This document shows positions 12,308-62,821 of a stretch of 64,000 nt of DNA, piece after piece; position 1 is the stretch's first letter; every line of letters begins with the position of its first letter. Source of the stretch: Cupriavidus neocaledonicus (GTDB taxonomy: Bacteria; Pseudomonadota; Gammaproteobacteria; Burkholderiales; Burkholderiaceae). The DNA is taken from contig NZ_AQUR01000086.1 in assembly GCF_000372525.1 (NCBI RefSeq), positions 1-64,000 of the forward strand. The letters are read 5' to 3'. Both the position numbers and the translations under genes were made by a program. A model generated the notes under the pieces. That model was not told the DNA's origin and did not search any database. It saw nothing but the letters and a program-made list of their open reading frames with translations.

Positions 12308-12336
12308 TTGCATCCGGGATGCGGAGCCACCACAAT
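12308..12336 (+). promoter_or_regulatory. possible promoter of split tRNA-Leu
   Basis: TTGCAT (12308-12313), 17-nt spacer, CACAAT (12331-12336). It is a moderate sigma-70 match that would start RNA about 70 nt before the tRNA. Confidence 0.35.
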
Positions 12337-12412
12337 ATCGGGCTTGCCGCGCGCTGCAGCACCCTGGGCCGGTCTGGCACCGACCGGTAACGGCAACAGA
12401 CGCAGCGCACGC

Positions 12413-12723
12413 GCCCGAGTGGTGAAATCGGTAGACACAAGGGACTTGAACAATTTGAGCCTTCGGGGGGAAACGCCCGAAGTGACGCCCGTCAAAGTCG
12501 GCGAACGCCCTGGATGCCATGGCATCCGAGCCAACGCCGAGCCAAGCCCAGCCGCCAAGGCCGGGAAGGTGTAGAGAGCAGACGGCGGGCACCTACGGCC
12601 GCAAGGCTATGGTGAAGGCGTGCTCCAGCCCACGAACAGCGCCCGCGCTGGCGGCGAAAGCCGAAGTGGGAAGAAAATCCCTCGCCGCAAGGCGTGCCGG
12701 TTCGATTCCGGCCTCGGGCACCA
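12413..12723 (+). tRNA. tRNA-Leu(UAA), interrupted by a group I intron
   Basis: The 5' exon 12413-12447 ends in GGGACTT and the 3' exon 12674-12723 begins AAAATCCC. Joined, they give an 85-nt tRNA including encoded CCA: acceptor GCCCGAG/CTCGGGC, anticodon stem AGGGA/TCCCT with loop CTTAAAA (anticodon UAA), a long variable arm CGCC-GCAA-GGCG as expected for leucine, and T-arm GCCGG-TTCGATT-CCGGC. The break falls after U34, inside the anticodon, so the gene is useless unless the intron splices. A terminator follows at 12824. Confidence 0.93.
12448..12673 (+). ncRNA. group I self-splicing intron (IC3-like) in tRNA-Leu(UAA)
   Basis: 226 nt, no ORF. P1 pairs exon CUU (12445-12447) with GAG (12457-12459), giving the U-G pair at the 5' splice site. 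P2 is CUUCGGG/CCCGAAG (12461-12467/12476-12482). A hairpin GGATGCC/GGCATCC lies at 12512-12527. A GCCGAGCCAAGCCC element (12536-12549) resembles the P4/J4-5 strand of cyanobacterial tRNA-Leu introns. P7 is GAGCA/UGCUC (12576-12580/12621-12625), and P9 is CCCAC/GUGGG (12629-12633/12666-12670). The intron ends in G (12673). Insertion after U34 is the same site used in cyanobacteria and plastids. Confidence 0.9.
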
Positions 12724-12823: not shown

Positions 12824-12849
12824 AAAAAGGGGGCAATCGCCCCCTTTTT
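12824..12849. terminator. bidirectional terminator, tRNA-Leu / yeiH-type gene
   Basis: AAAAAGGGGGC (12824-12834), loop AATC, GCCCCCTTTTT (12839-12849). A-tract and T-tract flank the stem, so it can end transcription from both convergent genes. Confidence 0.9.
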
Positions 12850-12870: not shown

Positions 12871-13977
12871 TCACGCCATCGCGTAGCACATCAGCGCCCC
12901 CGCGCCCATCAGGAACACGAACAGCACACCGGCCAGCGCCAGCGGCTTGCGGCCTGCGCGCACCAGGTCGCCGATGCGGGTGTGCAGGCCGATCGCGAGC
13001 ATCGCGCAAGCCAGCAGCCAGTTGTCCAGCGCGATCAGCGGCGCCTTCCAGGCAGCGGGCACGGCGCCGGCCGAATTGACCGCCATCACCGCGACAAAGC
13101 CCACCGCGAACCAGGGCACCGACTTCATGATGCCGCGCAGGCGGCCTGCGCCGGCGCCGGACCGGGCCGGCTGCGAGCCGCCCTGAGGCCACAGCGCCAT
13201 CACCAGCAGCAGCGGACCCAGAGCCAGCACGCGCACCATCTTGGCCACCACGGCGGCGTCGGCGGTTGGCTCGCTGATCATCTTGCCGGCGGCGATCACC
13301 TGCGCCACTTCGTGCAGCGTCGCCCCGGTAAAGATGCCGAACATGCGCTCGCTCACGGCCCAGTGCCAATGGCCGGTGGCCAGTTCGTACAGATAGGGAT
13401 AGAGCAGCATGCCCACGGTACCGAACAGCACCACCGTCGCCACCGCCACGGCAGTCTGCTTGTCGTCGGTGCGCACCACCGACGACACGGCGATCGCCGC
13501 TGCCGCGCCGCAGATGGCGCTGCCGGAACTGACCAGGATCGCCTCGCGGCGGCTCAGGCCGAACCAAGTCGTGCCAACCCAGGTGCCGAACAGCAGCGTG
13601 GCCACCAGCATGGTCAGCGGCACGGCGATGCCCGGCAGGCCCAGCGCGACGATCGAGGCGAAGGTCAGGCGCAGCCCGTACAACGCCACGCCCAGCCGCA
13701 GCAGGTAATGCCGCGCCACCTGCATGCCGGGGGCCAGCGGCGCCAGCCAATGGCGCGGCAACGTATTGGCCGCAACCATGCCGGCGCACATGGCCAGCGT
13801 CAGCGCGCTGAGCCCGTAGCGCGATACCGCCGGATGCTCGGCCAGCGCAATCGCCAGCCACGCGATGCCGCCCAGCGGGAGCAGTGTCAGCAAGCGCTGC
13901 GACCAGGGCGGCGGCAAGGCCGGTGCCGCGGTTGGCGCGGTGGCCGGAGTGGTGCGGGGGCTGGAGACGGAAGACAT
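12871..13977 (-). CDS. YeiH-type (UPF0324) putative sulfate exporter
   Basis: A 368-residue integral membrane protein with about ten hydrophobic segments. It matches the YeiH/UPF0324 family: RHYLLRLGVALYGLRLTF near 90-105, SSGSAICGAAAAIAVSSVVR near 150-170, and FGIFTGATLHEVAQVIAAG near 215-235. Family members are annotated as putative sulfate/sulfonate exporters and are commonly paired with a divergent LysR regulator, as here. A Pro/Ala-rich N-terminus of about 25 residues precedes the first helix. The next plus-strand gene encodes the regulator 100 nt away. Confidence 0.88.
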   Translation of the reverse strand: MSSVSSPRTTPATAPTAAPALPPPWSQRLLTLLPLGGIAWLAIALAEHPAVSRYGLSALTLAMCAGMVAANTLPRHWLAPLAPGMQVARHYLLRLGVALYGLRLTFASIVALGLPGIAVPLTMLVATLLFGTWVGTTWFGLSRREAILVSSGSAICGAAAAIAVSSVVRTDDKQTAVAVATVVLFGTVGMLLYPYLYELATGHWHWAVSERMFGIFTGATLHEVAQVIAAGKMISEPTADAAVVAKMVRVLALGPLLLVMALWPQGGSQPARSGAGAGRLRGIMKSVPWFAVGFVAVMAVNSAGAVPAAWKAPLIALDNWLLACAMLAIGLHTRIGDLVRAGRKPLALAGVLFVFLMGAGALMCYAMA

Positions 13978-61711: not shown

Positions 61712-62821
61712 ATGGACTTGAGCATTCCAAATCCCGTTGCCGACACGACCAGGCAGGTCGAGGGCGGCAGCCCCGCAGGCGGCCAGCCGCTGGAAATCGA
61801 CGCGCTGATCGTCGGTGCCGGCCCGGTCGGTCTGTTCCAGGTGTTCGAACTGGGCCTGCTCGAAATCAAGGCCCACGTCATCGATTCCCTGAAGGTCGTT
61901 GGCGGCCAGTGCGTCGAGCTGTATCCGGACAAGCCCATCTACGATATCCCGGCCGTGCCCAGCTGCACCGGCCAGGAACTGACCGACAACCTGCTCAAGC
62001 AGATCGAGCCGTTCGAGCCCACCTTCCACCTGGGCCAGGAAGTCTCCGTGGTCGAGCGCCGTGAAGACGGCCGCTTCTTCGTCGAGACCTCGCTCGGCAC
62101 GCGCTTCATCACCAAGACCATTTTCATCGCCGCCGGCGTGGGCTCGTTCCAGCCGCGCACGCTGAAGGTCGATGGCATTGACAAGTTCGACGGCAAGCAG
62201 CTGTTCTACCGCGTCAAGGACCCGAGCCGCTTCCACGGCCGCAACCTGGTCATCGTCGGCGGCGGCGACTCGGCGCTGGACTGGACCCTGGACCTGGTCG
62301 GCAAGGCCGAGTCGGTGGTGATGATCCACCGCCGCGACGGCTTCCGTGCCGCGCCGGCGTCGGTCGCCAAGATGAAGGAACTGTGCGAGCAGATGGAAAT
62401 GCAGTTCCTGGTCGGCCAGATCAGCGGCTATGAAGAGAAAGACGGCGTGCTCACCGAGATCAAGGTGTCCGGCGCCGACGGCGTGACCCGCCGCCTGCCG
62501 CTCGACGACCTGCTGGTGTTCTTCGGGCTGTCGCCCAAGCTGGGCCCGATCGCCGAATGGGGCCTGGACCTGGAGCGCAAGCAGATCAAGGTGGACACGG
62601 AGAAATTCCAGACCAATATCCCCGGTATCTTCGCGGTCGGCGATATCAACACCTATCCCGGCAAGAAGAAGCTGATCCTGTCGGGGTTCCACGAAGCCGC
62701 GCTGGCCGCGTTCGGTGCTGCGCCGTATATCTTCCCCGAGAAGAAGATCCACATGCAGTACACCACCACCTCGCCGAAACTGCACAAGGTGCTGGGCGTG
62801 GAATCGCCGGTGTTCGACTGA
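61712..62821 (+). CDS. ferredoxin-NADP+ reductase (thioredoxin-reductase-like)
   Basis: 369 residues. Two Rossmann domains: FAD-binding [16 protein letters not shown] (about 31-46) and NADP-binding [17 protein letters not shown] (about 185-201); no redox CxxC between them, so it is not a thioredoxin reductase but the type used as ferredoxin reductase in many bacteria. The C-terminal FAD contact is [19 protein letters not shown] 61712 after AGGACGA. Paired with fdxA and followed by a strong terminator. Confidence 0.9.

Follow-up and report, generated by a model that had tools for sequence, protein, structure and literature searches.

An intron-split tRNA-Leu(UAA) gene in Cupriavidus that probably replaced the native gene and has counterparts at the left end of a Tn4371-like ICE

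We found that the window, the whole stretch of 64,000 nucleotides from Cupriavidus neocaledonicus that was analysed, carries a gene for tRNA-Leu(UAA) that is interrupted by a group I intron. The gene was probably acquired laterally and took the place of the native gene at its own locus, and in relatives such a gene forms the left (trb) end of a Tn4371-like ICE.

Results

Structure of the split gene

With introns allowed, ARAGORN called a tRNA-Leu(taa) at positions 12413-12723, with exons that join into 85 nt with paired stems and an intron of 226 nt after position 35; without the intron option the program missed the gene. The last intron base is G, as in group I introns. No homing endonuclease ORF was present in the intron, where the longest stop-free stretch is 62 codons. 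The original prediction, made from the letters alone, of a group I intron in tRNA-Leu(UAA), inserted after U34 between exons of an 85-nt tRNA, ending in G and free of a homing endonuclease, was borne out on each of these points by ARAGORN and by covariation in 30 homologues (below). The features of the locus are collected in Table 1.

Table 1. Features of the split tRNA-Leu(UAA) locus in the window.
Feature	Positions	Strand	Basis
5' exon, ending CUU (U34)	12413..12447	+	ARAGORN with introns
Group I intron, 226 nt, ORF-less, ending in G	12448..12673	+	Rfam, ARAGORN, covariation
3' exon, CCA encoded	12674..12723	+	ARAGORN with introns
P1: 12445-12450 with 12454-12459	12445..12459	+	Helix 1; U.G pair at 5' splice site in 30/30 introns
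P2: 12461-12467 with 12476-12482	12461..12482	+	Helix 2; 6/7 pairs changed on both sides, 89.9% of cells paired
P3: 12487-12493 with 12581-12590, three-base bulge	12487..12590	+	Helices 3, 4
P4: 12498-12503 with 12535-12540; P5 and P5a inside	12498..12540	+	Helices 5-7
P7: 12576-12580 with 12621-12625; presumably the guanosine-binding helix	12576..12625	+	Helix 10; 2/5 pairs changed on both sides, resting on two sequences (L109, L188); 100% paired
P9: 12629-12633 with 12666-12670, plus P9a, P9b	12629..12670	+	Helices 13-15
Putative retained promoter region of native intronless gene: TTGCAT-17-CACAAT and block CCACAATATCGGGCTTGCCG	12308..12349	+	By eye
Terminator-like hairpin	12824..12849	+	By eye
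YeiH-family gene, used as marker for synteny and for the tree of the native tRNA-Leu(UAA) locus	12871..13977	-	PF03601, TIGR00698, tblastn

The Rfam group I model Intron_gpI (RF00028), proposed as a check together with the original prediction, matched positions 12438-12598 (E=0.00097, 25.1 bits); the match did not reach the gathering score of 50, which is a curator's cut-off of one general model and no feature of the RNA. A search with Intron_gpI across the whole genome at E<=0.001 returned nothing. From the similarity of its core to the Azoarcus intron, the intron is presumably IC3-like.

For the comparative test, an alignment of 30 homologous introns (A1, a subset of those collected) was scored against a 60-pair group I structure, written by hand from the general group I architecture and guided by the window sequence. 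We observed that 96.7% of cells were paired, compared to 29.6-42.4% in slid control structures, over which the 60-pair structure is favoured because the window sequence guided it. Changes on both sides, which do not come from that guidance, were found in 27 of the 60 pairs, and none of 500 shuffles reached any of the five measures. The fold has a P3-P9 core with P7 and the P3/P8 arrangement of group I introns, supported by covariation. Judged by structure, 12448-12673 is confirmed as a group I intron, the comparison with homologous sequences settling its identity.

We found no UAA gene in the assembly other than the one in the window. A second one was absent among 52 RF00005 matches, every one read with ARAGORN, and a DNA search of the genome with the window gene detected one copy. 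The original prediction had made the cell's dependence on ribozyme splicing hinge on the lack of a second UAA gene, and the sole gene found agrees with that premise. The 52 matches also lacked tRNA-Tyr, Gly-UCC, Ile-GAU and Ala-UGC, so the draft of 107 contigs has gaps; a missed UAA copy is possible. The UUA codon is rare, with 4 occurrences among 14,723 codons in 38 heuristically chosen ORFs of the window.

Replacement of the native gene

An intronless tRNA-Leu(UAA) pattern matched 49 of the 60 genomes of the genus, two of these matches being broken halves; all intronless-gene searches used exact patterns, which a divergent gene could escape. Among 30 native-pattern loci that were fetched, ARAGORN found the gene whole in 28, the remaining two being those of genomes G020 and G021. 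In the 28 whole loci the native gene reads GCGGCCGTGG...CAGACTTAAAATCTG... and is clearly different from the window's exons.

BLAST with the window gene covered 41 of the 60 genomes (36 plus five more), and the other 19 were all native-pattern matches. The full intron gene was present in 11 of the 41 (G000, G006, G008, G014, G015, G020, G021, G060, G072, G081 and G082), nine of which had no native match while two (G020 and G021) had a broken half. G030 had a truncated intron gene. Neither the native pattern nor the intron gene was found in G012 (54% complete) and G062.

The surroundings of the window's gene are those of the native one. The block CCACAATATCGGGCTTGCCG, with small variants, lies directly 5' of the native gene in the 28 whole loci and also precedes the window gene; the nearby TTGCAT-17-CACAAT was read by eye as a putative promoter. 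Downstream of the window gene follow YeiH and LysR. Hairpins similar to the one in Table 1 were seen by eye downstream of some native genes too.

Spread of the intron by itself, with reverse splicing as its way into the anticodon loop, is very unlikely in view of these exons. The common insertion site after U34 across the Leu(UAA) set would be expected of such a process, and reverse splicing needs no endonuclease. However, in Cupriavidus the exons that flank the intron belong to a type other than the native one. Because the exon types differ, we rejected that the intron entered the native gene by itself.

A YeiH tree (single gene, midpoint root) had 39 rows, including 27 of the 28 native rows offered, one having no match. 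Nine rows of the window's type formed one clade (95/85) inside the native rows, and G006, G020 and G021 stood apart from it. The state labels change four times on this tree, with the intron state nested in the native state, which we read as four probable acquisitions of the intron gene. Lateral replacement of the native gene by the window's gene is well supported by these comparisons, and vertical inheritance is visible only inside the nine-row clade that holds the window. The original prediction of long residence and probable vertical maintenance finds no support in a nested intron state with four changes. It had also argued from GC content. The likeness itself holds (66.4% in the intron, 66.9% in the whole window), but the inferred long residence does not, since similar introns are found in ICEs of other Proteobacteria and matching GC then proves little.

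An ICE that carries a split tRNA-Leu(UAA) gene

The native gene of G020 and G021 is interrupted just past the anticodon loop, and a complete intron-containing tRNA-Leu(UAA) gene lies 168-171 bp beyond the core on the same strand. G021 holds a 61.8-kb copy of the inserted ICE with both ends. Its cores are at C33:18644 and C33:80440, 61,796 bp apart, and share CTTAAAATCTG. The flanks, when joined, give a whole native gene, the 3' half of which lies at C33:80440 beside YeiH. On the fetched stretch of this contig, CTTAAAATC occurs at the two ICE ends only. A tyrosine integrase of 400 aa (PF00589, PF13356) starts 177 bp from the right core. In G020 both ends were found as well, on two contigs, with a 9-bp shared core CTTAAAATC and, at the right end, an integrase 91% identical to that of G021. 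As read from these junctions, the ICE breaks the host tRNA-Leu(UAA) gene and brings a split substitute.

Directly behind the intron tRNA of G020 are DUF2274, TrbI, TrbG, TrbF, TrbE and TrbB, and the five Trb families were confirmed by profile on the G020 proteins. In G021, DUF2274 and the Trb genes follow ~6 kb behind the intron tRNA, past transposase and Gabija-like genes. Two more genes of the ICE are presumably TrbL and TrbJ. The cargo of G021 includes ParA-like and catabolic (aromatic-degradation-like) genes, recognized by eye from ORF starts. A relaxase was not identified in the G021 element. With an integrase, att repeats at both ends and conjugation genes, this element has the make-up of a Tn4371-like ICE. 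Its target is the anticodon loop of tRNA-Leu(UAA), not the Tn4371 integration site, and since the target differs, we name the element 'like' only.

Gabija-like genes (best PADLOC models GajA and GajB) lie behind the intron tRNA at L237:11624-15834 and L123:4653-7808; at L123 the GajA match covers the C-terminal part only, and another ORF precedes it. G021 also has a second intron tRNA (L238:9841-10161), called tRNA-Leu(CAA), which is 84% identical to the window gene over the matched stretch. No att-like core was found near it in 19.9 kb.

Left ends and intron genes in other genomes

A scan of named genomes with an intron-core pattern yielded at least 119 stretches. At least 124 intron tRNA genes were extracted from the pattern scan, BLAST and later loci, three duplicates being dropped. 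Among the matches listed, 52 Leu(UAA) intron loci and 69 of other isotypes were compared, all of them selected by the intron. An unsplit CTTAAAATC was present at most 700 bp upstream on the same strand in 11 of the 52 Leu(UAA) loci (among the matches listed), and locus L162 had a variant with one changed base, also upstream and on the same strand. For other isotypes, a matching unsplit core was seen in 1 of the 69 loci (among the matches listed), on the opposite strand. This locus, L140, has an intron gene of tRNA-Ile(CAU) type; the matching unsplit loop lies on the other strand, 283 bp upstream.

When the left junction CTTAAAATCNNNTTTGTCAA was searched for independently of the intron, 3 of the 399 genomes from the order had it, while the backwards control matched none; in the class sample, 0 of 369 genomes had a left end. 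Left ends are rare in both sets. Two of the three junctions run into an intron tRNA-Leu(UAA) called by ARAGORN. At the third, L275, ARAGORN names Phe, and Leu(UAA) was read by eye.

The left ends collected in this way number 15 (12 via the intron and 3 via the intron-independent search). In all 15, the split tRNA lies 167-171 or 202-204 bp inside the left end on the same strand, downstream of the 5' half of the host gene and on the strand of that gene. Exon 1 of the element is identical in 11 of the 15 left ends, while the host 5' halves are of 12 kinds. TrbI was found near the split tRNA in G020, G021, L091, L095, L099, L133, L157, L162 and L177; the stretch of L099 begins inside the tRNA, so that the tRNA itself is uncalled there. 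L123 had DUF2274 alone within reach. L128, L136 and L179 have the left end, with neither trb nor DUF2274 in the stretch examined, and L275, which also has a left end, lay outside the Trb query search. In each of the five ICE hosts searched whole (G020, G021, G251, G407 and G409), the intronless pattern matched the broken half only. Other relatives of the integrase in the genus (8 places, 63-85% identical) had no CTTAAAATC in the stretches examined.

Several introns are nearly the same in distant hosts. For example, those of Lysobacter concretionis (L133) and of a Burkholderiales genome (L273) differ at 1 position in 233 columns. The introns at L095, L157 and L274 have one and the same sequence. 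The intron of G020 groups with Ottowia and Lysobacterales introns in a tree of 67; in the pairs that were compared, 14-17 positions separate it from them. Many inner branches of this tree are weak and long branches meet, so only the near-identities are relied on. Compared with three ICE introns, that of the window has 16, 20 and 32 differing positions. Exon 1 of the window gene equals the ICE exon of 11 of the 15 left ends; it also equals the host 5' half of L273, and the exon match is for this reason not specific to the ICE.

The intron-gene pattern matched 21 of the 399 genomes of the order; four of the 21 also matched the intronless pattern, as three broken halves and one intact gene (G116). 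Among the matches listed, 40 of the 52 Leu(UAA) intron loci had no left end in the stretch examined. Six of these (L094, L098, L115, L121, L150 and L190) adjoin tRNA-Gly or tRNA-Cys, so chromosomal lineages may be an older source. One might suppose that the intron is an ancient, vertically inherited resident of tRNA-Leu(UAA), as in cyanobacteria, and that the ICE merely picked up a copy in which the intron has no role. The occurrence of intron genes in many Beta- and Gammaproteobacteria, mostly with no left end in the stretch examined, and in 21 genomes of the order would agree with this. We regard it as quite improbable, given the four label changes and nested intron state in the genus, window exons of another type than the native gene, and near-identical introns in distant hosts.

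Traces of the ICE

No ICE end was detectable at the window: 167 of 200 shuffles scored as high upstream, and 31 of 200 downstream. Candidate remnants on each side were rejected as not significant in these shuffles. Upstream in the same clade, 4 of 200 shuffles scored as high for L158 and 9 of 200 for L282, with 45 or more for the rest. A search for the ICE integrase in the genome of the window had no match at E<=1e-60, so neither an end nor an integrase was found in place.

In G006, the split gene is followed by a terminator of the ICE type, which 0 of 200 shuffles equalled. This genome also has, as judged by eye, the decayed 5' half of a native gene (BLAST 77% over 44 nt, E=0.27). Trb queries were unmatched in two stretches of it (L246 and L259), and the ICE integrase was unmatched in the genome. 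The intron tRNA and YeiH of G006 are separated by ~22 kb (L246, L259).

These observations bear on whether an ICE took part at all. Recombination with a chromosomal donor might have replaced the native gene, the ICEs of G020 and G021 being parallel events, and the lack of an ICE remnant at the window, the lack of the integrase in its genome and the kept native promoter block all fit such a course. On the other hand, G006 keeps the ICE-type terminator, and the two gene types have little sequence in common (82.9% over 35 nt of the 5' half), which makes an exchange inside the gene unlikely. We consider replacement from a chromosomal donor somewhat unlikely. The window's copy likely came by an ICE of the type seen in G020 and G021.

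Phage and plasmid carriers

A phage vehicle was rejected: the left-end pattern occurred in four viral contigs, none of which had a tRNA, the intron core motif or an ICE-protein match. The gene matched 16 phage records, 11 of them with the 3' exon only, 2 with the 5' exon region only and 3 with part of the intron. Part of the intron was matched at ~75% identity in records H41-H43 (an uncultured 595-kb phage and two Gordonia phage Daredevil entries).

Plasmid pCTX-M3 carries a divergent tRNA-Leu(UAA) gene (L276:3993-4294; NC_004464.2, about 61821-62122) that likewise contains a group I intron; ARAGORN misnames it, and we read it as Leu(UAA) by eye. This gene matched 1280 of 72,556 PLSDB records (1257 over at least 80% of the length). 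Among 5,426 complete E. coli genomes it matched 635, in 624 of them over at least 80%. In two records that were inspected, aac(3)-IId is close by, and the E. coli record NZ_CP032204.1 has no annotation at the gene.

A Bradyrhizobium conjugative plasmid has an intron tRNA-Leu(UAA) 748 bp from trbI (L277:3995-4284), possibly a parallel of the ICE arrangement. The C. necator N-1 megaplasmid has a truncated intron tRNA-Leu(UAA) at L241:9874-10051, preceded by sequence similar to the ICE left end (74% over 94 nt); two native-pattern matches exist in this genome beside the truncated gene.

Discussion

In relatives, the sequences show that the ICE enters the tRNA-Leu(UAA) gene of its host at the core CTTAAAATC in the anticodon loop and truncates it, and that the intron copy is left as the only intact UAA gene that searches find. 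We propose the following for the rest. The orientation and spacing of the rescue gene suggest that the host promoter may drive it, and its RNA would self-splice. The intron parts the core (CTT^AAAATC), and the rescue copy should on this account be no target for the integrase that the ICE encodes. Later, the clade of the window would have lost the ICE, or a donor with such a gene, and kept the split gene.

From the position of the intron in the shared core, we infer a possible role as an 'att shield'. In general terms, group I introns in bacterial tRNA genes would leave the rescue RNA whole and hide the split att core from the ICE integrase as well as from elements of like specificity that arrive later; we see even chances that this is so. 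If true, it would explain how ORF-less tRNA introns pass from one species to another and how genes with them end up, as in the window, as the sole gene for a tRNA. How tRNA introns free of an endonuclease move between bacteria is, to our knowledge, an open question. The present analysis points to a conjugative element as a candidate vehicle and to the exchange of an entire host tRNA gene as the route. It also suggests a possible reason for the intron, which would split att in the DNA and be gone from the RNA. Some hosts may depend on a mobile element for decoding UUA, and imprecise loss of the element would then be penalised.

Several known systems share parts of this arrangement. The IC3 introns of Azoarcus tRNA-Ile(CAU) and cyanobacterial tRNA-Leu(UAA) are likewise small, ORF-less and placed in the anticodon loop, the cyanobacterial one at the same site after U34. 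Those introns are chromosomal, whereas here the gene is carried at one end of an ICE whose target is that same tRNA. The Tn4371-family ICEs are alike in having trb-type transfer genes and DUF2274 at one end, and the G021 element resembles them in its ParA-like and aromatic-degradation-like genes (by eye). Tn4371 uses a short site outside tRNA genes, while the element described here uses the anticodon loop of tRNA-Leu(UAA) and carries a complete intron-split tRNA.

Integrative elements that target tRNA genes and restore the tRNA 3' end from attP also share the tyrosine integrase and the tRNA target; here, in contrast, the host gene is left unrestored, and the element brings another complete gene, which has an intron. 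Archaeal tRNA introns have been proposed to block the integration of elements, and the likeness is that an intron interrupts a tRNA att site. In the present case, however, the intron is a bacterial ribozyme, and the interrupted copy is carried by the mobile element itself.
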